The notes below the pieces were generated by a model. That model was not told where the DNA came from, did not search any database, and saw only the letters and a program-made list of their open reading frames with translations. Below, piece by piece: positions 10,714 to 49,318 of a stretch of 64,000 nucleotides of DNA (positions are counted from its first letter, which is position 1; each line of letters begins with the position of its first letter). Source of the DNA: Winogradskyella sp. (GTDB lineage: Bacteria > Bacteroidota > Bacteroidia > Flavobacteriales > Flavobacteriaceae); assembly GCF_028289625.1 (NCBI RefSeq), contig NZ_JANQOM010000028.1:1-64000 (forward strand), read 5' to 3'. The translations under genes were made by a program, and so were the position numbers.

Positions 10714-11478
10714 TCACCGAATGCTAAGAGCTCTTAGCATTTCACGCTTGCCAGGTGGTCCAGGAAGACGTTCTACTGCAAAACCTACCGCCTCCATGGC
10801 ACGTCTTACACTGCCTTTTGCAGAATAGGTGACCAAAACACCCTTTTTCTTTAAGGCTTTAAACATAATGGCAAAGATAGCCTCGGTCCAAAGTTCGGGT
10901 TGTACACGTGCTCCAAAGGCATCAAAATAAATAATATCAAAGGTATCTTTTGCTTTAATGTCTTTAAAAAACTTTTGTTGTTTTTCGAGCTGAAAATGAG
11001 GTGTAATTTGGTGTTGTGCTTCCCAAGGCACTTCATGTAGTTTTTCGAATTCAGATTGATGGTTTTGGGAAATCAATTCTACATAATTCAGTTTTTCGAT
11101 CTCATCGGTTGCTACAGGATAGGCTTCCACACCAACATAATTGATGCTTTGCTTGAGTTGCTTCGCTTGTATTAAGGTGAGAAAGGCATTGAGACCTGTG
11201 CCAAAGCCGATTTCGAGAATGTTGATTGGTTGTGACCCTGAAACAAGTTCAGGATGACGAGGGGATTCTTCACTGGCATTTAGACTCTTTTCGGATTGCA
11301 CCTCGACTGCGCTCGGTGTGACATCCTTAATAAGCCCAAAATGAAAAAGCAAACCATGTTTTATAAACACATGATTTGCTTCTTGTATGGCACCATGAAT
11401 GGAATGGTATTGCTCGTTCCAATCTTCTATCTGAATGGTCTTTGAACCATCGGAAGTGGTGATTATTCTACGCTTCAA
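10714..11478 (-). CDS. mnmD: MnmD-like tRNA U34 aminomethyl methyltransferase
   Basis: SAM-dependent methyltransferase for the final methylation of mnm5(s2)U34 in tRNA, without the FAD domain of MnmC. The 254 residues show N-terminal TTSDGSKTIQIEDWNEQYHS, the SAM motif EIGFGTGLNAFL at residues 89-100, the substrate motif YFDAFGARVQPELW, and the C-terminal GPPGKREMLRA. Residues about 50-83 look like an in-frame insertion made of two dispersed repeats (KDVTPSAVEV and SPRHPELVSGSQ), just before the SAM motif. A 20-bp perfect palindrome (10721-10740) covers the last codons. Confidence 0.85.
   Translation of the reverse strand: MKRRIITTSDGSKTIQIEDWNEQYHSIHGAIQEANHVFIKHGLLFHFGLIKDVTPSAVEVQSEKSLNASEESPRHPELVSGSQPINILEIGFGTGLNAFLTLIQAKQLKQSINYVGVEAYPVATDEIEKLNYVELISQNHQSEFEKLHEVPWEAQHQITPHFQLEKQQKFFKDIKAKDTFDIIYFDAFGARVQPELWTEAIFAIMFKALKKKGVLVTYSAKGSVRRAMEAVGFAVERLPGPPGKREMLRALSIR
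11232..11330. repeat. Dispersed repeats embedded in the mnmD coding sequence
   Basis: Two repeat-like segments lie in frame inside mnmD: about 11232-11266 (encoding RHPELVSGSQ) and about 11298-11326 (encoding DVTPSAVEVQ). The second shares the core ACTGCGCTC with 37491-37522 inside icmF, as expected of a mobile palindromic repeat rather than of conserved protein sequence. Confidence 0.65.
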
Positions 11479-25782: not shown

Positions 25783-28700
25783 TTTTCATTTAGATTTCAG
25801 TTCCTTAATTTTATGGATGATTCACAGGCCGTGTAATATTTTTTAGTCTTCTTTTGGTGTTGTGAATTGCTTTCAGTTCCTTAATTTTATGGATGATTCA
25901 CAGGAAAAGATACAAGATATTTAAGTAAAAGCGAGTTGTGAATTGCTTTCAGTTCCTTAATTTTATGGATGATTCACAGGAGTTAAGCAGAAATTGGGCG
26001 ATAAGGCGGAGTTGTGAATTGCTTTCAGTTCCTTAATTTTATGGATGATTCACAGGTAGGAAAAGGCATTGAAAGAGCAGATGAAAGTTGTGAATTGCTT
26101 TCAGTTCCTTAATTTTATGGATGATTCACAGGTATATGAAAAAGGTTACATCGATGACAGTAGTTGTGAATTGCTTTCAGTTCCTTAATTTTATGGATGA
26201 TTCACAGGGTTCATAAAACCAACTCGTTTACCTTCTGTGTTGTGAATTGCTTTCAGTTCCTTAATTTTATGGATGATTCACAGGATCACTAACTTTTACT
26301 TTTTGTCTAATGTCGTTGTGAATTGCTTTCAGTTCCTTAATTTTATGGATGATTCACAGGTGTAGGCGTAAGCGTCAGAGTACACTACTAGTTGTGAATT
26401 GCTTTCAGTTCCTTAATTTTATGGATGATTCACAGGACGGTCTGAGACAATAGATAGGGCGTACAAGTTGTGAATTGCTTTCAGTTCCTTAATTTTATGG
26501 ATGATTCACAGGTTTCATAAGCTTTTTTGGTTTGTCTTCATAGTTGTGAATTGCTTTCAGTTCCTTAATTTTATGGATGATTCACAGGTGGAACTTCAAA
26601 GATAGTATTTCTTCGTTAGTTGTGAATTGCTTTCAGTTCCTTAATTTTATGGATGATTCACAGGCTTTTCGTCTGCAAGTGTTAATCAATGTCGGTTGTG
26701 AATTGCTTTCAGTTCCTTAATTTTATGGATGATTCACAGGTGTTTTTGCATCAAGTCAAGACGAAAGAAAGTTGTGAATTGCTTTCAGTTCCTTAATTTT
26801 ATGGATGATTCACAGGAACAATTGCACCAAAACGCTGTTGAACTGAGTTGTGAATTGCTTTCAGTTCCTTAATTTTATGGATGATTCACAGGTTTGCCTT
26901 TTTCTGTTGCGTGCGCTTCAGTGTTGTGAATTGCTTTCAGTTCCTTAATTTTATGGATGATTCACAGGAACGTTTGCTCTTGTCGATGAGGGAAGCAAGT
27001 TGTGAATTGCTTTCAGTTCCTTAATTTTATGGATGATTCACAGGAATCCACAAAATCTTTGTCACTCAATTGAAGTTGTGAATTGCTTTCAGTTCCTTAA
27101 TTTTATGGATGATTCACAGGTTGCTATGCCTTGATTTTTAGTTCTTTTAAGTTGTGAATTGCTTTCAGTTCCTTAATTTTATGGATGATTCACAGGTTTA
27201 TCACCATCAAAACCAAGTTCATCAAAGTTGTGAATTGCTTTCAGTTCCTTAATTTTATGGATGATTCACAGGAGTTGCTTACAACGCCAGTACATCCAAG
27301 TAGTTGTGAATTGCTTTCAGTTCCTTAATTTTATGGATGATTCACAGGGAGCACAAGCTCTTTTGAAAAGATGCCGAGTTGTGAATTGCTTTCAGTTCCT
27401 TAATTTTATGGATGATTCACAGGTGTACGTCCACCTGAAAATGACACTACCAAGTTGTGAATTGCTTTCAGTTCCTTAATTTTATGGATGATTCACAGGT
27501 TCCTGGTTTAAATTGTCTGCCTGGTAGGAGTTGTGAATTGCTTTCAGTTCCTTAATTTTATGGATGATTCACAGGAGATCGAGGTATTTGTACCATTGGT
27601 GCAAAGTTGTGAATTGCTTTCAGTTCCTTAATTTTATGGATGATTCACAGGGTTGATGCTCACGTCCAAACTGTCACGATTGTTGTGAATTGCTTTCAGT
27701 TCCTTAATTTTATGGATGATTCACAGGTAAGTTTGAAAAACCTCGGCAGATGTTATAGTTGTGAATTGCTTTCAGTTCCTTAATTTTATGGATGATTCAC
27801 AGGAAGTGCCAAACATGGGTATGATGGGACTTGGTTGTGAATTGCTTTCAGTTCCTTAATTTTATGGATGATTCACAGGAGTAGGTAGTATAATATCTAG
27901 TATTTATCAGTTGTGAATTGCTTTCAGTTCCTTAATTTTATGGATGATTCACAGGTCATCTTCTTACTACATTAAGAGATACTTAGTTGTGAATTGCTTT
28001 CAGTTCCTTAATTTTATGGATGATTCACAGGCTCTGAATGATGAAAATACTCTACTTGTGGGTTGTGAATTGCTTTCAGTTCCTTAATTTTATGGATGAT
28101 TCACAGGAATACTAATAGAAATAAGAGATATTCAATAGTTGTGAATTGCTTTCAGTTCCTTAATTTTATGGATGATTCACAGGTTACCGGTAAGATTGTC
28201 TAAGTTGAAATAAGTTGTGAATTGCTTTCAGTTCCTTAATTTTATGGATGATTCACAGGATAGAATACGGCATCGCTGGATAGCATATCGTTGTGAATTG
28301 CTTTCAGTTCCTTAATTTTATGGATGATTCACAGGCCCATCCTCATCACAAGGCACGAACATAGAGTTGTGAATTGCTTTCAGTTCCTTAATTTTATGGA
28401 TGATTCACAGGTCCAAAACGCTATCGGTATCCGTAATAAGAGTTGTGAATTGCTTTCAGTTCCTTAATTTTATGGATGATTCACAGGGCCTGTTCAATAT
28501 CAATTCCGCTCTTGCAAGTTGTGAATTGCTTTCAGTTCCTTAATTTTATGGATGATTCACAGGCGCTCACATTGAGCTGGACGACTTATTCGAGTTGTGA
28601 ATTGCTTTCAGTTCCTTAATTTTATGGATGATTCACAGGTACGGACAACATACCGCCATCGAAAGCCTTGTTGTGAATTGCTTTCAGTTCCTTAATTTTA

Positions 28701-29019
28701 TGGATGATTCACAGGAACAACTCAAATCAAACTCCAATGCGATAAGTTGTGAATTGCTTTCAGTTCCTTAATTTTATGGATGATTCACAGGTACGACCAT
28801 TTCTTCAATTCATTGAACCAAGTTGTGAATTGCTTTCAGTTCCTTAATTTTATGGATGATTCACAGGCAGTTCACCGTAATACGTATCCTTGCTCGAGTT
28901 GTGAATTGCTTTCAGTTCCTTAATTTTATGGATGATTCACAGGTGATGGGTGACTTTACCAAGGCACACGTTAGTTGTGAATTGCTTTCAGTTCCTTAAT
29001 TTTATGGATGATTCACAGG
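25783..29019 (+). CRISPR. Type II-C CRISPR array: 42 perfect repeats plus 1 degenerate
   Basis: The 46-bp repeat starts GTTGTGAATTGCTTTCAG and ends GATGATTCACAGG. Full copies start at 25859 and every 76 bp until 27303; the next starts at 27378 (a 29-bp spacer) and the last at 28974. All other spacers are 30 bp. A degenerate repeat (25783-25828) keeps only the 3' part from about 25795. The tracrRNA anti-repeat (34706-34723) is complementary to the repeat 5' end as read on the plus strand, so crRNAs are transcribed left to right, convergent with the cas operon. The 213 bp before the array (25570-25782) hold no gene and no obvious leader. Confidence 0.99.
25860..25889 (+). promoter_or_regulatory. 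Promoter inside each CRISPR repeat (first full copy shown)
   Basis: Repeat positions 2-4 are TTG and positions 24-31 are TAATTTTA, separated by exactly 19 bp. This is the same spacing and a nearly identical minus-7 box to the tracrRNA promoter at 34672-34701 (TTG, 19 bp, TATCTTTA). Since it lies in the repeat, it recurs in all 42 full copies. Type II-C arrays of Neisseria and Campylobacter are known to be transcribed from repeat-borne promoters. Confidence 0.6.
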
Positions 29020-29100
29020 TTACTTGCCGTAATAGGCTGGTATCCTGTTTTTTAGAATGCCTGTCAGAAATTACTAAAGAGATTGTACAAGATAGATGAG

Positions 29101-29127: not shown

Positions 29128-29478
<351 letters not shown>

Positions 29479-29486
29479 TTACCATA

Positions 29487-30407
29487 TTAACCAACAAAAG
29501 TTTCTAAAGATGACTTAAACTCCGGATAAAGCACCTTGCGCCTACTTCCTTCAAAACATTCGTACAAACTGGTTGTGGTCCGGCTCATAGCATTCATAAG
29601 CGGACTCTGTTTGCCGTCGATAAGTACATCCATAGCTGGAATCATCAACAAATCGGACTTGATATTTTTATTCAGTTCCTCAATTTGGCAACCCGATTCC
29701 ACAATGTCATACACCAAAGCATCCACAAAAGGTCGGTAGGGTTCCATAACGTCATCGGCCAAGCAAAAGGCATTGTATTTATTGTGATGAAAAATACCCA
29801 AGGAAGGTAACAGCCCACTGCTTACCAAAGCTCTTGCTGCAACCGCTCTTAAAATGGCATAGCCATAATTAAGCAAATTATTGGGTGGAACGCCTTTTTG
29901 GTTGCGACTAAACTCTTCAATTTCAAACAGATTCTGAAAGTAAAAGGCGGCAGCCAAAGCTTCCTGGTTATTCCAATCTCCTGTTTTCACATCCTTGGCG
30001 TAACGTTTTAAACGCAGTGCATTTTTGCCCCTTGCCAAAAAGTGATTGGCCTGATTGTCTATTTTGGCAATAACGGTTTGTTGCCACAAATTCTTCTTTA
30101 AAGGCACACTGGCATTAAGTTGGTGGCGCATACGCTCGGTTTGTTCGGTATGACCCACCAAGGGTTGTAAAAAGCCCATCGGTAGATGTTGTTGGTTACA
30201 GGTAATGACGGCCGTTTTATTGTCAATCAGTTTGCGCAACAAACCATTGGTGATGGTAATCTGTGGGTCTTCTAAAACCACATAGCCCAAATCTTCAATA
30301 GGGATGGTAGCTTCCTTTTTATCTTCTTCTGGAAAGTTGACCACCAATTGTTCATTTTTGGTGCTGAGATAAGCAGGATTGCCGAAAAAAAGAGTGCGTT
30401 TAATCAT
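29487..30407 (-). CDS. cas1: CRISPR integrase Cas1
   Basis: 306 residues of the type II Cas1 family. The metal-binding catalytic residues are in place: E149 in NNQEALAAAFYF, H207/H208 in LGIFHHNKYN and E222 in DDVMEPYRPFVD. It integrates new spacers with Cas2. The start is 4 bp after the cas9 stop, so translation is tightly coupled. Confidence 0.98.
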   Translation of the reverse strand: MIKRTLFFGNPAYLSTKNEQLVVNFPEEDKKEATIPIEDLGYVVLEDPQITITNGLLRKLIDNKTAVITCNQQHLPMGFLQPLVGHTEQTERMRHQLNASVPLKKNLWQQTVIAKIDNQANHFLARGKNALRLKRYAKDVKTGDWNNQEALAAAFYFQNLFEIEEFSRNQKGVPPNNLLNYGYAILRAVAARALVSSGLLPSLGIFHHNKYNAFCLADDVMEPYRPFVDALVYDIVESGCQIEELNKNIKSDLLMIPAMDVLIDGKQSPLMNAMSRTTTSLYECFEGSRRKVLYPEFKSSLETFVG

Positions 30408-30411
30408 AATC

Positions 30412-33400
30412 TTAATATTCGCCTAATTGTACAATGTGACCTAAATGGTTTAAACGCACTTTTACTAGATTCTTAAGATAAGAGAGACTCTTTATATTGT
30501 AATAAGTAACATCTTTCAACTCTTTTTTATCAATTAATTCAGTTTCTAAATGATGTCTAAAAACATACTCCCTGACAAACGAATTACCATATTGCAATTT
30601 CGAAAATTTTTGTACTCTAAACAGATTAGGCGATATGAGATTTTGATTTTTGACATCTAAAAGGTCAATTTCTGAAGGTTCAAAATTATCACTTGGAAAG
30701 ACAAACATTTCATTTTGTTTAAGTGTAAACAAAAGTGGCCAGCCTTTATCATTTTTAGTTCTTACAATGGGTAAATCATGACTTTTTCTTATAACTGCAT
30801 CATAAAAAGTTACGACCTCATCATCTAATTCACCCTCTTCATTCTGATATATTGCAACATGATGGTTATTGCCAGTACTCACATAATCTACAGGAATTTC
30901 CTTGCCATCCTCATCGGTTAAAACCTCTCCTAAATGGTTTTTCGCGGTATGAAGCGGTTCGGCATTGCTTACACCTGTAATAGTCACTCTTTTTACGGTT
31001 ATTCCTTTTTGATCATTAAGATAAATTGGATTGGTATCTAAATCAGAAAAGGCCTTTTTGTAATCGTTATTGTAGTCAACTATGCGTTTTTTTAGTGCTT
31101 CTTTGACACCTTCGTCCAAAATCTTATCAATATGCTTAACATTTTTAAAGTTCTCTGAATTAATGTCTTTACGTATGGTATAGATTTCTTCGAAACATAA
31201 AACTTCTTTTAATTGTTCTCCTCCATACAATAGTGGTTCCTTTTTAAGGGTCTTGTTATCGAAAGCCGTTTCATGATTATTGCTGTATTTAGCCAAATGC
31301 TCTAAAACCGCCTTGCGCTCATTGAAATTTACAATGAGGCTGGCCTCTTTCAGCGTAAATCTTTTATTGATTTTGGTAGGCTTGGCGAGTTGTCTTTTTG
31401 ATTTACCATAAACTGTCTCTTTGTGCAACTGTCCGCGTGGTGTTAGTTGAACTTTTTTGTTGAAACCACCTTCTTTTTTACTTTTGTTGATGTTTTTGGT
31501 CACAACTTTGTTCTTGTTCTTAAAACTGACCAAAATGGATTCAATCTGTTTTTTAGCCTGCTCTCTAAAATTGGGCATTGGGCTTTTAAATACACGCTTC
31601 CCTTTCCCATTTCGTTCCGTAATGAGAGCTTCTATGTTTTTTATTCTTGGATGATTGTCTCTTGATGTATCTTTTCTTGCACTTAGATTATTGATATATT
31701 GAATATGATTATACGTGGTAAAGGCAACCGTTAAGGCATCCATGGCATGGTGACGATGGTCGTTGCGCTTTGTCCATTCCTTGATGATTTCATGCTTTTT
31801 TAATTTACCTGTTGAAACATTTAACCGCTCTTCAAATTCGGTAAGACCTAAAGCACGATATTTTGGCAAATTGAGCTCCTTCATCACATTAATCAAATCC
31901 CAATCGTTTCTAAGTTTATCCGTTATTTTTCCGGACGTAGACACTATAGGTTCTTTAACCAATTCTTGTAACACTTCTTTTGCCTTTTTGGCAATATATT
32001 GGCTGTTGCGCAGGTCGCGTTCAATAAAACCATCTGGAATTTTGGATAGTGGTGTCAATAGCTTGTTGCGTTTTGCTCGGTTAATATGCCCATCTTTGTG
32101 CATACTTTCCACCCGCTCAACAAAGGCTTCTAAATTAGCATTGTAATCTTGTGAGATAAAATCGTAAGCAGTACGGTTAGCTTTTTTTAAATTGTCTTTT
32201 TTAAAAGCCAGGGTCTTGTTGGAAAAGGAATCATCAAACAATAAAGCTTTTGGAATAATGTGTTCAATGTCTATGTCTTTTGAAAAAAGTATTTCAGGCT
32301 TTATGTAAGTGTCCGTGAATAAATCCTTATGTCCTCGAGATTCCAATTCTTGGTACAATCGATAACGAATAACGTCATTTCTTGTAGGATTGGGAATACC
32401 AAACTTCTGGCTGATGATTTTTCGTATCTCATCATTTCGTCTTGTGGCATCGGCAATACCTTTAGTCATCTCAGCGCGTTCCGTAGCTGATTTTTTAAGC
32501 TCTCGAGCCAATTCAATCCTAACTTCATGAATTTCTCCATAGGTATCAATAATTTGGTTGACCACATTAACCATTTGGTTCAAGATTTTTTCTACAACAG
32601 GATTTCGTAAACTTTTCTTCTTAAGAATTTCCAATTTTGGCCTCAATTCCCTGTTTGCCAATTCATTCTTGTCATAGCTTTTGGAATGGTTATAACCGGC
32701 TCTATGGCAGGCTTCAGAATACAAATCGCCATCTTCTAAATAAGGTAGAATATTACGTATGGCCTTGGCTGAAAGATTTCCGTAGCCTTGCGAAAACGTT
32801 ACATTGGCCAGCATAGAAGCGTATTCGGGTCTAAAGCCAAATTTTTTATACAATTTTTTCTTTAGGGATACGCTAGAGTTGCCGTATATCAATCGGTCTT
32901 CTTCTGAAATCTTGTCGTCGTCGTCCGTAGCATAAAGCAAATGCCATAATTGGTAACTTAATTGCTTATCAAAATTATCTGCCAAGGCATCAAACTCAAG
33001 GATACGCTTGTCAATTCCCATTTCAGGAAACGTTTTTAAAAGTTCTTCCTTAATAGCTTTTGCCGTTAGTTTTTTCCAATCAATTCCATAACCTTCCCGT
33101 TCTGAAATAGTTTGATAAATGCCTAAGAGTGCTTGATTGGTTCGATTACCTTCAACCTTCTCAAAATTGCATTTCCATTGGTTTTTTTTACCAATGTCCA
33201 TATATCCTGATAAAATTTTGAGGATGTCATTTGGACTGAGGTCACCTCGAAGATTTAATTCCCCAAATAGGGCTTGCCGTATTTCAGCATCGAGTTCCTT
33301 AACCTCAATTCTCGTCTTTGCTCCGGCATTTATAAAAATAAGGTGATTAAGGTTCTGCCATATCTTAAACTCTTGAAATAGGGGCGAGGACTTCGGAATT

Positions 33401-34611
33401 ACTCTTCTTCCAACGATTCGCTTTTTTGTTTTACCAGTTTCTTTTTCAACATACTCTTGTTCCCAACTTTCAAATTGGCAGAAGCTTATCAGGGACTTTT
33501 GGGATTTTAACTTGCGTTGGTAGAAAATTACAATATCACGGATGGTCTCCTTTAAATCTTCAGTAAGTTCTTGATGAAACTTGGCTTGTGTGTCCCAAAT
33601 GTGTTCAAATTCATCTAAATAATCCTGACGATAAAAAACTTGATTTTTAAGAGATGTGTGAGGGTTACGAAGCAGTTGTTTGTACAAGTATTGACCAACC
33701 GTTTCCTTATTAAGAAACAATTGTTTGCTCCGGTCTGAAATGGCTCCAAGATAACCACTAGATTTATTGATGTCATTATTTATTTCCTGAAGTACAATTG
33801 CCAAATGCTCCAATTCCAATTTTTCATTGAGTCCGTCAACACGCCATCTATAATTTTCCAATCGTTTATCCTTAGCATTTCCTGTTCTTTTGATACCAAC
33901 GATTTCAAAAGGTTTTTGACAAATGGCCCAAGTTTGATTCTTGTTTTTACCTTGAAGAGCTATAAAAAGATTGTCCGTTAGGATTTCTGAATAAAAGTGC
34001 TTTTGAACCTTCCATATGTTTTTAAATTCTTCCTGTAAATCTGACCTATAAAAATCTGGAATGTATTTTCCATCGTGCCTTAGAATCCTTAATGCATATT
34101 GCGCAGGTGTTAGGTTCTCTTCATATAATGCTTTGGCAACTGCCATTCCATCGATAGCCTGACCCTCTTCTTCATTTTTAGCTTTTCGGCTACTTTTATA
34201 ACCACGCTTTTTGTTGATGGCTAATAGGACTTTGGCAAAATCCTCAAGAGCTATCTTTTCAGTTGCGGCTTTAGCTCTAAGTGAAAGTGTTTGGTGTGTG
34301 GTGTTTTTACCAACTTCGGTTAATGGTGAGTTCCCCGATATGAAGTTATTGTCTTTTAAGATTTTTATGAGTTCTTTTCTTCTAAGTTTATAGCGTTGTA
34401 GGTTACGTCTCGCACCACGTTTTAAGGTTCGGTCTGCGTTTGTGGATAAAGGCCTACCTTTTTCAAAGTTGGTTTTCTCATCGACGCTTAGCGGATTTAC
34501 CCGAACACCCAATTTAACTATTGAAGAGGTTTCATTATCGTTTTCTGCTTCTCCAACCAACGCCCACCCAATTGAGTTAGTGCCTAAATCCAGACCTAAA
34601 ATTCGTTTCAT
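30412..34611 (-). CDS. cas9: Type II-C CRISPR nuclease Cas9
   Basis: RNA-guided DNA endonuclease, 1399 residues, within the long range seen in Bacteroidetes II-C Cas9. RuvC-I has D8 in ILGLDLGTNSIGWAL; an Arg-rich bridge helix covers about residues 57-85; RuvC-II has E700 in VRIELARELK; HNH has H784 in DIEHIIPKAL with N798; RuvC-III has H955 and D958 in HHAMDALTVA. All catalytic residues are present, so both nicking activities should work. The roughly 400-residue tail after RuvC-III would hold the PAM-interacting domain. No Cas4 or Csn2 is present, as expected for II-C. The ATG at 34611 lacks a clear Shine-Dalgarno, as is usual in this phylum. Confidence 0.99.
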   Translation of the reverse strand: MKRILGLDLGTNSIGWALVGEAENDNETSSIVKLGVRVNPLSVDEKTNFEKGRPLSTNADRTLKRGARRNLQRYKLRRKELIKILKDNNFISGNSPLTEVGKNTTHQTLSLRAKAATEKIALEDFAKVLLAINKKRGYKSSRKAKNEEEGQAIDGMAVAKALYEENLTPAQYALRILRHDGKYIPDFYRSDLQEEFKNIWKVQKHFYSEILTDNLFIALQGKNKNQTWAICQKPFEIVGIKRTGNAKDKRLENYRWRVDGLNEKLELEHLAIVLQEINNDINKSSGYLGAISDRSKQLFLNKETVGQYLYKQLLRNPHTSLKNQVFYRQDYLDEFEHIWDTQAKFHQELTEDLKETIRDIVIFYQRKLKSQKSLISFCQFESWEQEYVEKETGKTKKRIVGRRVIPKSSPLFQEFKIWQNLNHLIFINAGAKTRIEVKELDAEIRQALFGELNLRGDLSPNDILKILSGYMDIGKKNQWKCNFEKVEGNRTNQALLGIYQTISEREGYGIDWKKLTAKAIKEELLKTFPEMGIDKRILEFDALADNFDKQLSYQLWHLLYATDDDDKISEEDRLIYGNSSVSLKKKLYKKFGFRPEYASMLANVTFSQGYGNLSAKAIRNILPYLEDGDLYSEACHRAGYNHSKSYDKNELANRELRPKLEILKKKSLRNPVVEKILNQMVNVVNQIIDTYGEIHEVRIELARELKKSATERAEMTKGIADATRRNDEIRKIISQKFGIPNPTRNDVIRYRLYQELESRGHKDLFTDTYIKPEILFSKDIDIEHIIPKALLFDDSFSNKTLAFKKDNLKKANRTAYDFISQDYNANLEAFVERVESMHKDGHINRAKRNKLLTPLSKIPDGFIERDLRNSQYIAKKAKEVLQELVKEPIVSTSGKITDKLRNDWDLINVMKELNLPKYRALGLTEFEERLNVSTGKLKKHEIIKEWTKRNDHRHHAMDALTVAFTTYNHIQYINNLSARKDTSRDNHPRIKNIEALITERNGKGKRVFKSPMPNFREQAKKQIESILVSFKNKNKVVTKNINKSKKEGGFNKKVQLTPRGQLHKETVYGKSKRQLAKPTKINKRFTLKEASLIVNFNERKAVLEHLAKYSNNHETAFDNKTLKKEPLLYGGEQLKEVLCFEEIYTIRKDINSENFKNVKHIDKILDEGVKEALKKRIVDYNNDYKKAFSDLDTNPIYLNDQKGITVKRVTITGVSNAEPLHTAKNHLGEVLTDEDGKEIPVDYVSTGNNHHVAIYQNEEGELDDEVVTFYDAVIRKSHDLPIVRTKNDKGWPLLFTLKQNEMFVFPSDNFEPSEIDLLDVKNQNLISPNLFRVQKFSKLQYGNSFVREYVFRHHLETELIDKKELKDVTYYNIKSLSYLKNLVKVRLNHLGHIVQLGEY

Positions 34612-34671
34612 ATGGTTAATTTTTATTCAATATCGTTCAATTATACATTTTTTGTTTACGGAAATCCGTAT

Positions 34672-34705: not shown

Positions 34706-34780
34706 CTGAAAGCAATTCACAATAAGGATTATTCCGTTGTGAAAACATTTAAGGTGGTACTTCATGTATCGCCTTTTTTT
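34706..34780 (+). ncRNA. tracrRNA
   Basis: The 18-nt anti-repeat at 34706-34723 pairs with the first 18 nt of the CRISPR repeat (17 Watson-Crick pairs, one G-U). A nexus follows (AAGGATTATTCCG, with GGA/TCC stem), then a linker GTTGTGAAAACATTTAAGG. A terminator hairpin has arms near 34752-34760 and 34766-34774 (with wobbles) and a T-run to about 34780. Length about 75 nt. It is divergent from cas9. Function: pairs with pre-crRNA for maturation and binds Cas9. Confidence 0.92.
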
Positions 34781-34793
34781 TATAATGTTTCAG

Positions 34794-34862
34794 TATTCCA
34801 TTACAAAAAATCTAGAGCTAAAACATTGAAAATGATACTCCAATTTGATGTGTATCCTTTTT
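34794..34862 (+). ncRNA. Possible decayed tracrRNA-like 3' module
   Basis: Right after the tracrRNA terminator the order of elements partly repeats: TATTCC (34794-34799), AAAACATT (34820-34827), then GATAC (34834-34838) / GTATC (34852-34856) and a T-run. Both flanking tracr-like genes show the same order. There is no anti-repeat. The match is weak, so this may be a degraded copy or chance. Confidence 0.3.
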
Positions 34863-34868
34863 ATTTGT

Positions 34869-34876
34869 CAAATATA
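34869..34876 (-). promoter_or_regulatory. Minus-strand TATATTTG box, possible cas9 promoter
   Basis: Perfect TAnnTTTG on the minus strand (34876-34869), pointing to cas9 with a leader of about 250 nt that would run antisense to the tracrRNA. No TTG is visible at the expected upstream spacing. A closer alternative, TATAATTG on the minus strand upstream of the ATG, has one mismatch. Start point unproven. Confidence 0.4.
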
Positions 34877-34883
34877 AAAAATT

Positions 34884-34898
34884 TACATACATAATTGT
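34884..34898 (-). promoter_or_regulatory. Putative Cas9 self-target site between divergent promoters
   Basis: The minus strand reads ACAATTATGTATGTA, identical in 14 of 15 bases to 35022-35036, the segment immediately 5' of the scaffold-like hairpin of the second tracr-like RNA. The last 10 bases next to the scaffold match without a gap. The site covers the TTG (34895-34897) of the plus-strand promoter and lies 8 bp upstream of the minus-strand TATATTTG box, so Cas9 bound there could block both. Confidence 0.6.
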
Positions 34899-34926
34899 TT
34901 TTAAAACAGAATTTCAGTTATATTTG
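34895..34926 (+). promoter_or_regulatory. Promoter of the tracr-L-like RNA
   Basis: TTG (34895-34897), 21 bp, then TATATTTG (34919-34926), a perfect minus-7 box. RNA would start at about 34932. Confidence 0.65.
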
Positions 34927-34931
34927 TCAAA

Positions 34932-35130
34932 AGCAAGAAAAGAATAATACGTGTGTTATTTTAGAATTGGCCTCCAAAACCAATTCTTGGTTTTCAAACT
35001 TACTTGCTTATTTATTTTTTTACAACTATGTATGTATTAGGAATTGTTAGACAACAACTCCTAACAAGGATTATTCCGTTGTGCAAACATTTAAAGTGGC
35101 ATTAGTTAATTCTAGTGTCGCTTTCTTTTT
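34932..35130 (+). ncRNA. Natural single-guide-like (tracr-L-like) RNA
   Basis: 34 nt at 35066-35099 match the tracrRNA scaffold (34724-34757 region) with two changes, covering the nexus and linker. The anti-repeat is absent. In its place is a self-complementary hairpin: TTAGGA (35037-35042) with TCCTAA (35059-35064), an A/C mismatch, and TTGTT (35044-35048) with AACAA (35053-35057), closed by the loop AGAC. A terminator stem of 13 pairs (35093-35105 with 35112-35124, three G-U) and a T-run end it at about 35130. Its sequence differs from the tracrRNA terminator while the fold is kept. The 5' part has a further hairpin (34963-34970 / 34980-34987) and the guide-like stretch 35022-35036. Confidence 0.7.
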
Positions 35131-48640: not shown

Positions 48641-49318
48641 TTATTTAATTAAATTAGACTTTATTACGGTGTCTATATCCTCCAATAAGCGTTCTCTTTT
48701 TTTGTTCCCGCCAAAATATATATTAACACCAAGAGCAATTCTAATGAATGACTCATCGTTATTTGGGACTATAAGGCCGTCTAACTCGTTAGAAAGTACA
48801 TAATTGTACTCACCAAAAAGTTTGATCCCTACACCTTCAGTAATTATATATTCCACACCTGTACCAGCTTGCACTTTAGTTTGGGTATTTTCAAAATCAT
48901 TAGATGCATTATACCCATATCCACCAAACAGGAATGGAGTAAATTTCTGATAAGGCAAAATCAAGTATTCTAAATTCAAATCAAAAGACATGAAATCTTC
49001 GTTAAAAGTATTATCAAATGCTAGATTATACCTGTTAAAAGTAACCCCAATGTTTAATTGTTCTGTAACGTGTTGCTTAAACCCAATTCTAAAATATAAC
49101 TCAAATTCTGGTTCTGGGTAGTCGTTATTAATTAGCGAAGTACCAACAGCAGCATCAATGGCACTTGTTCCTCGTAAATCGTAAAACTCTAACTTTCGGA
49201 ATAAATCTTTATTTTCCTGAGGACTCTTTTCTTCCTGAGGACTCTTTTCTTCCTGAGCATAACCTACAAGACTAAAAATAGTTAATACTATAAGTAGAAT
49301 TTGGTTTTTACCTATCAT
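48641..49318 (-). CDS. Outer membrane beta-barrel protein with 6-residue tandem repeat
   Basis: About 225 residues: a signal peptide (to about residue 20, ending VGYAQ), a tandem EEKSPQ EEKSPQ stretch encoded by two near-identical 18-bp DNA repeats, then an eight-strand porin-like barrel (FELYFRIGFKQHVTEQLNIG, IKLFGEYNYVLSNEL). ATG 49324 is an alternative start. Function unknown. Confidence 0.75.
   Translation of the reverse strand: MIGKNQILLIVLTIFSLVGYAQEEKSPQEEKSPQENKDLFRKLEFYDLRGTSAIDAAVGTSLINNDYPEPEFELYFRIGFKQHVTEQLNIGVTFNRYNLAFDNTFNEDFMSFDLNLEYLILPYQKFTPFLFGGYGYNASNDFENTQTKVQAGTGVEYIITEGVGIKLFGEYNYVLSNELDGLIVPNNDESFIRIALGVNIYFGGNKKRERLLEDIDTVIKSNLIK

Follow-up and report, generated by a model that had tools for sequence, protein, structure and literature searches.

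The closest described counterpart of the RNA analyzed here is tracr-L of the S. pyogenes type II-A system (Workman et al. 2021), a natural single guide that passages of PMC11417352 credit with an 11-nt match to Pcas. Passages of PMC8616872 also give 11 nt and describe the extended tracrRNA as absent from other subtypes, and passages of PMC8730458 give 9 bp and speak of many Streptococcus species in the tracr-L context. As outlined in these passages, tracr-L is a long isoform made from an upstream promoter of one tracrRNA locus. A second precedent is the Francisella novicida scaRNA, a degenerate repeat RNA that, in the part of PMC8730458 devoted to it, repurposes Cas9 through a short target match, requires a separate tracrRNA, and acts on lipoprotein gene targets. 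For type II-C, sections of Feussner et al. 2025 (PMC12080349) discuss unintended self-directed guides; the esgRNA presented there is an artificial fusion for an assay, built with an extraneous crRNA, and no natural fused RNA figures in those sections. Titles and abstract starts of the literature searched, a scope that subscription papers mostly fall outside, describe no natural single guide in II-C.

The window, which is the whole 64,000-nt stretch of Winogradskyella sp. DNA analyzed, probably encodes a dedicated natural single-guide RNA (sgRNA) that takes Cas9 to the region upstream of cas9 for autoregulation. This putative RNA shares with tracr-L, as portrayed in the above passages, the use of the Cas9 scaffold as a single guide, a short match at the cas promoter, here a candidate one (9–14 nt in the window and 12 nt in a second genome, G255), and an autorepression logic in which cleavage is not expected. 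Unlike tracr-L, it would come from a gene apart from the tracrRNA, equipped with a terminator and a candidate promoter of its own and situated in a Flavobacteriaceae cas9-cas1-cas2 locus. Because its own scaffold lies 342 nt downstream of the tracrRNA scaffold and is followed by its own terminator, it is not a tracr-L in the strict sense. It differs from scaRNA, as sketched above, in that a single RNA would do the work and the target would be cas9. There is also a likeness to noncanonical crRNAs, reportedly the subject of Jiao et al. 2021 (PMC8224270), where a cellular RNA likewise guides Cas9 and host transcripts are said to serve as the guides.

The cas9 locus of the window

The locus comprises the following elements.

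30412..34611, minus strand: cas9 (1399 aa; TIGR01865, E 9.8e-149; the translation, inspected by eye, has RuvC and HNH motif stretches)
29487..30407, minus strand: type II cas1 (open reading frame and model match)
29128..29472, minus strand: cas2 (open reading frame and model match)
25859..29020, plus strand: CRISPR array with a 46-nt repeat that starts with GTTGTGAATTGCTTTCAG
34706..34781, plus strand: canonical tracrRNA (anti-repeat 34706-34723, scaffold 34724-34757, then the terminator)
34784..34863, plus strand: tracrRNA-tail-like unit between the tracrRNA and the sgRNA (3' part CTAGAGCTAAAACATT, found by a fuzzy pattern with 2 changes)

The cas9 reading frame and the array appear intact, and the genes follow the order cas9-cas1-cas2, then the array, with no further open reading frame of at least 80 aa in the interval between cas2 and the array. 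The array holds 41 spacers, 40 of 30 nt and one of 29, and the first 30 nt of the repeat are exact in 42 copies. The tracrRNA lies on the plus strand, divergent from the minus-strand cas9, and 17 nt of its anti-repeat (34706-34723) are perfectly complementary to the array repeat. By gene content and order the system looks like type II-C, a label given with models that do not separate subtypes. The Csn2 model PF09711 gave no match in the window's genome, and the control genomes were without a match as well. A search of the whole window against Rfam returned no family reaching the gathering score and two chance-level matches near the locus.

Several smaller elements accompany the locus. The array repeat contains TAATTTTA, a near-match to TAnnTTTG, which we take to be the Bacteroidetes -7 box; this suggests promoters borne by the repeats. 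Promoters encoded in repeats have been proposed in F. psychrophilum (PMC10309648). A palindrome of the type ACGGAAATCCGT occupies 34657-34670 in the window and recurs at L046, L082, L090, L096, L105, and L111; it lies about 67 nt before the tracrRNA scaffold in seven of 65 cases, against 0.05 expected in shuffles, and is likely a regulator site between cas9 and the tracrRNA. Tandem tracrRNA-tail-like units stand downstream of tracrRNA terminators in the window and at L052, L053, L057, L083, L085, L099, and L106. Read by eye, there are one to three per locus, each self-complementary and consisting of AATGTTTCACGAACTCC...CGTGAGCTAAAACATT and a terminator-like hairpin. Across 65 scaffolds, the fuzzy pattern for these units matched 10 times, in 8 cases with both parts; the 5' part is missing by pattern in the window, where AATGTTTCAG failed and was read by eye, and at L043, a doubtful case. 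Elsewhere in the window, 49214-49257 is a perfect 18-nt tandem repeat of 2.4 copies.

A second scaffold with a self-hairpin

Downstream of the tail-like unit, a second set of elements follows.

34919..34926, plus strand: candidate -7 box of the sgRNA promoter (TATATTTG)
34932..35021, plus strand: 5' leader of the putative sgRNA transcript, with a hairpin AGAATTGG/CCAATTCT at 34963-34987
35036..35065, plus strand: self-hairpin in place of the crRNA:tracrRNA duplex (5' arm repeat-like, 3' arm anti-repeat-like)
35066..35092, plus strand: scaffold copy, predicted to bind Cas9 (the full copy extends over 35066-35099)
35093..35130, plus strand: intrinsic terminator of the sgRNA (stem 35093-35105/35112-35124, followed by a T-rich tail)

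The preliminary description had stated that the 34-nt scaffold recurs at 35066-35099 with two changes and that it is preceded by a self-hairpin with an A/C mismatch and a 4-nt loop, and both statements were borne out. The copy is identical to the tracrRNA scaffold (34724-34757) at 32 of 34 nt, and a 30-nt scaffold pattern with up to three mismatches occurs at exactly two places in the 3.65 Mb genome, side by side. The hairpin (35037-35064) pairs the arms TTAGGA/TCCTAA and TTGTT/AACAA around one A/C mismatch and the loop AGAC. Its stability is unusual for the composition of these 30 nt (z -4.1; equaled by 1 of 500 shuffles), and the 60-nt stretch up to the scaffold gives a weaker signal (z -2.13; 18 of 500 shuffles). 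The leader as a whole (34932-35035) has no significant structure (z -1.34; 21 of 200 shuffles). Between 34612 and 35060 the plus strand has a single TAnnTTTG, the candidate box at 34919-34926, which fits a start at about 34932.

The same description had the anti-repeat replaced by this hairpin. The hairpin is indeed there, but its arms are not unrelated to what they replace: judging by sequence, they derive from a repeat and an anti-repeat that have fused and diverged. Nine of 13 positions of the 5' arm ATTAGGAATTGTT are shared with the repeat start GTTGTGAATTGCT, which 1 of 5000 shuffles equaled. For the 3' arm and the anti-repeat the figure is 8 of 13, a level reached by 193 of 5000 shuffles and weak on its own. 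In a reading against the native duplex, both partners differ at pairs 4, 5, and 12 of 13 with pairing kept, pair 8 is broken, and pair 1 has gone from G.U to A/C. With these changes, the 3' arm would prefer its own 5' arm (-10.4 kcal/mol) over the array repeat (-5.7 kcal/mol), and the RNA would thus be insulated from crRNAs, as expected of a single-guide RNA. The tracrRNA anti-repeat pairs with the array repeat at -26.8 kcal/mol, so the complementarity to the array that marks a tracrRNA is not found in the sgRNA. What is found is an intact scaffold and terminator and an anti-repeat paired in cis to a repeat-like arm. Relative to the tracrRNA of its own locus, the sgRNA has nearly the same scaffold and a terminator of the same make, and an anti-repeat that pairs poorly with the array and is closed in cis.

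These pairing properties bear on the idea that the element serves, as a tracrRNA, some other CRISPR array of the genome whose repeat differs. An example in its favor is genome G483, where the scaffold is found on two contigs and stands next to a cas9 on both. Here, however, the 3' arm AACAACTCCTAAC pairs with its own 5' arm 4 nt away, that 5' arm is repeat-like, and the window's genome (G000) has one Cas9 match at E ≤1e-50, which makes a second array highly improbable as the explanation.

The terminator (35093-35124) has the claimed 13 pairs, three of them G-U by eye, when the RNA is folded from 35016, and 11 pairs in the fold of a longer transcript, 34934-35130. The further suggestion that it is a structure-preserving variant of the neighboring tracrRNA terminator did not hold in that form; it is not simply a compensated copy. 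Its nearest relatives by alignment score are the tracrRNA tails of L085, L047, L082, and L095, not its own neighbor, and the Cas9s of L085, L082, and L095 are 64-67% identical to that of the window.

Guides that match the regions upstream of cas9

Directly 5' of the hairpin lies a guide with a counterpart between the tracrRNA and the sgRNA.

35022..35035, plus strand: guide (seed) ACAACTATGTATGT, directly 5' of the repeat-like arm
34885..34898, minus strand: predicted target, protospacer 3' end ACAATTATGTATGT, matching the guide at 13 of 14 positions
34869..34876, minus strand: candidate -7 box of the cas9 promoter (TATATTTG), beside the target and about 260 nt before the cas9 start

If the repeat-like part begins with 35036, the guide has 35035 as its last base (...TTTTTTACAACTATGTATGT) and in full covers about 35016-35035. 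The match includes nine exact bases at the hairpin end (ten counting A35036), with the mismatch at seed position 10. Among 3000 shuffled cas9-upstream targets, 1 reached 13/14 and 20 had a run of nine; for 768 other 20-mers from this region, the corresponding counts are 6 and 24. Within one mismatch, the guide 14-mer has the cas9-upstream site as its only place in the 3.65 Mb genome besides the guide itself. A reversed control pattern of this 14-mer has two matches in the same genome, so about one or two chance matches are expected and it is the place beside cas9 that counts. Beyond 14 nt, guide and site differ (TTTT versus AAAA), and with no match there a cleavage-competent R-loop would not be expected. 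In the predicted fold, part of the guide pairs with the 3' side of the scaffold, a pairing that loaded Cas9 would have to open.

The same design was found in G255 (locus L039), where two scaffold copies, 90% alike over 70 nt, lie 130 nt apart and divergent from cas9; the public record CALDUQ010000020.1 has the same sequence at this locus. The copy nearer cas9 is preceded by a hairpin with arms TTGTGAAATGA/TCATTTCACAA (z -3.84; 2 of 500 shuffles). When the 20 nt before the scaffold were paired with the 68 nt further upstream at 74 scaffolds, this sgRNA had the lowest energy of all (z -4.86); the window's sgRNA is absent among the 22 rows listed because the fixed 20-nt split cuts its short hairpin. 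The G255 guide reaches right up to the hairpin, its last bases (...TAAATATAGATA) ending at 10736; a second TAAATATAGATA lies at 11004-11015 on the cas9 strand, 62 nt before the G255 cas9 start. None of 602 other 20-mers and 1 of 3000 shuffled targets equaled this 12-nt run, and 12 of 3000 shuffles reached 13/14. The genome has 13 further sites within one mismatch of the 14-mer, and the cas9 site is the sole one among the matches listed to keep the 12-nt run. As in the window, the predicted fold engages part of the guide in pairing. Although the guides of the two loci show no sequence relationship, each matches the region upstream of its own cas9 and has the sense sequence of cas9.

A sliding control, in which a 20-nt pseudo-guide was placed at 42 offsets upstream of 54 scaffolds under the same match criterion, put these matches in proportion. 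Fourteen of 2268 tests passed, three of them belonging to the two sgRNAs and 11 to five other loci, one of which (L054) has a run of 15. The background is therefore about 0.5% per offset, above the shuffle-based estimate, and at that background two hairpin-adjacent matches in two sgRNAs would arise by chance very roughly 1 time in 10,000.

The match to the cas9 upstream region is present in both loci, and weak boxes suggest that the target is a promoter. On the minus strand of the window a second TAnnTTTG starts at 35002, and by eye the candidate promoter has no clear -33 TTG. The cas9 strand of G255 has a single full TAnnTTTG (10827), which precedes the target by 177 nt; near the target there is an imperfect box (TATATTTT, 11040). 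Since the guide is cas9 sense sequence in both loci, it would pair with the template strand. In dCas9 experiments, strand geometry distinguishes promoter occlusion from a roadblock to elongation. Template-strand pairing would fit occlusion of the promoter better than an elongation roadblock. Because the candidate sgRNA box (34919-34926) follows the window target at a distance of about 20 nt, the RNA could also tune its own synthesis.

The would-be PAM flank of the window (34876-34884) reads AAATTTTTT on the minus strand and agrees with the corresponding G255 flank, CAAACTGAT, solely at positions 2, 3, 6, and 9. Comparing the 41 window spacers with phages gave 13 weak records (E 0.4-5) and no usable protospacer. 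Spacers pooled from related loci total 4432 nt, of which the first 1230 had no match at E ≤0.05, and three spacers used as exact 27-28-nt patterns were absent from the viral contigs searched. A seed of 9-12 nt could bind many sites, and the RNA might be a natural single guide acting mainly on another gene, for example of a mobile element, with the cas9 upstream match being secondary; scaRNA-type regulation of other genes by Cas9 does exist, according to passages of PMC8730458. We regard this as very unlikely, given that the cas9 site is unique within one mismatch over 14 nt in the window's genome and that in G255, too, the bases next to the hairpin match the region upstream of that genome's cas9.

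Occurrence, origin, and proposed role

The scaffold pattern matches 54 of 397 family, 64 of 395 order, 50 of 395 class, and 6 of 68 genus genomes, in samples that overlap and, the genus excepted, are draws from larger groups. Close scaffold pairs occur in those samples in the window's genome and in G255 only, the latter being the sole member of its genus sampled. The sgRNA form is present at 2 of 65 loci examined. Fifty-three of these have a cas9 match, and the 12 without one, each with one scaffold, were left out of the second-scaffold step; at the other 51 cas9 loci, the 2.5 kb before cas9 (492 nt at L107) contain no second full scaffold.

A contig scan for scaffolds preceded by A, C, or G returned 15 stretches, among them G255 again (L067). 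Five viral-contig stretches with the scaffold showed no fused form by eye. At L066 1912-1930 (same record as L130), a scaffold and terminator stand with no cas9 neighbor, and the MAG has no Cas9 match at E ≤1e-10. At L129 8434-8451 (L073 in extended form; Chitinophagaceae ACE_BAC12), a second scaffold has no anti-repeat to the array. Here cas9 is immediately preceded by a diverged tracrRNA, and about 635 nt before the cas9 start there is a perfect scaffold followed by a terminator. This second scaffold has no convincing hairpin, and no 9-mer of its leader occurs in the cas9 upstream region; it is possibly a third tracrRNA-derived regulator.

Cases such as this one bring up an alternative, namely that the window's element is a decaying tracrRNA duplicate whose anti-repeat has drifted and whose self-hairpin and guide match are accidental. 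The L129 scaffold, lacking anti-repeat, clear hairpin, and target, looks the way such a duplicate might, and tandem tracrRNA-tail-like units are found at some loci. The sgRNA form is rare and missing from the nearest Cas9 relatives, and guide matches this good are not extremely rare in these AT-rich regions. Decay does not sit well, however, with an anti-repeat that has changed in pairs (three double changes, one break) next to an intact scaffold and terminator, with a guide match that is located beside cas9 and is the sole one within one mismatch in the genome, or with the same design in a different sequence in G255. Owing to the paired changes, the intact scaffold, and the target match, we do not make decay our leading view and judge it unlikely.

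The preliminary description had left open whether the RNA is an independent or an ancestral counterpart of tracr-L and had proposed to look for it at related cas9 loci, counting a lack of conservation there as a refutation. That comparison gave a divided answer, in that the nearest Cas9 relatives are without the sgRNA, including the closest (L092, 71% identical), and the same design recurs in G255. A Cas9 tree was built from 24 of the 53 loci (kept at >1000 bits, >1200 aa, and a full start). The two sgRNA carriers among the 24 are not sisters, and a clade of single origin appears in 0% of 200 bootstrap trees. An independent origin is therefore favored over an ancestral one, and two gains are simpler than loss in many lineages. 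From the similarity of the tails, the window's copy seems to descend from the tracrRNA type of its own Cas9 clade, and the G255 copy, given the likeness of its two scaffolds, seems to stem from local tandem duplication. Within the genus, Cas9 comparison covered 4 of the 5 other members with a scaffold match; these (L141-L144, in G1198, G006, G033, and G040) carry another Cas9 clade, 26-28% identical in the best-scoring segments. L007 (G043) has a partial Cas9 that is 66% identical to the window's. The CRISPR system seems to have been exchanged within the genus.

Reading the element as a natural single guide, as the preliminary description did, is supported by the guide match upstream of cas9 and by the different, own-matching guide of G255. 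In the mechanism that we propose, 35036-35130 together with a guide at about 35016-35035 would form a paralogue of the tracrRNA in which anti-repeat and repeat-like arm are linked within one molecule, and could therefore load Cas9 without a crRNA. The guide end would pair with the region upstream of cas9, at the candidate promoter, over about 9-14 nt, and because the match is this short, Cas9 would bind without the long R-loop required for cleavage. Bound Cas9 would occlude RNA polymerase and lower its own synthesis, and rising Cas9 would bring rising repression of cas9.

On balance, we favor the view that in type II systems outside II-A a duplicated tracrRNA has become a free-standing sgRNA gene aimed at its own cas9 promoter at least twice independently, which would make guide-directed Cas9 autorepression a convergent solution within type II and not a streptococcal peculiarity. 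If true, the single-guide format would be a bacterial invention made more than once and serving as a Cas9 rheostat. The loci would also provide naturally evolved sgRNA architectures, with a 4-nt loop and a shortened stem, and the question of why some Cas9 systems need self-repression would become directly testable.
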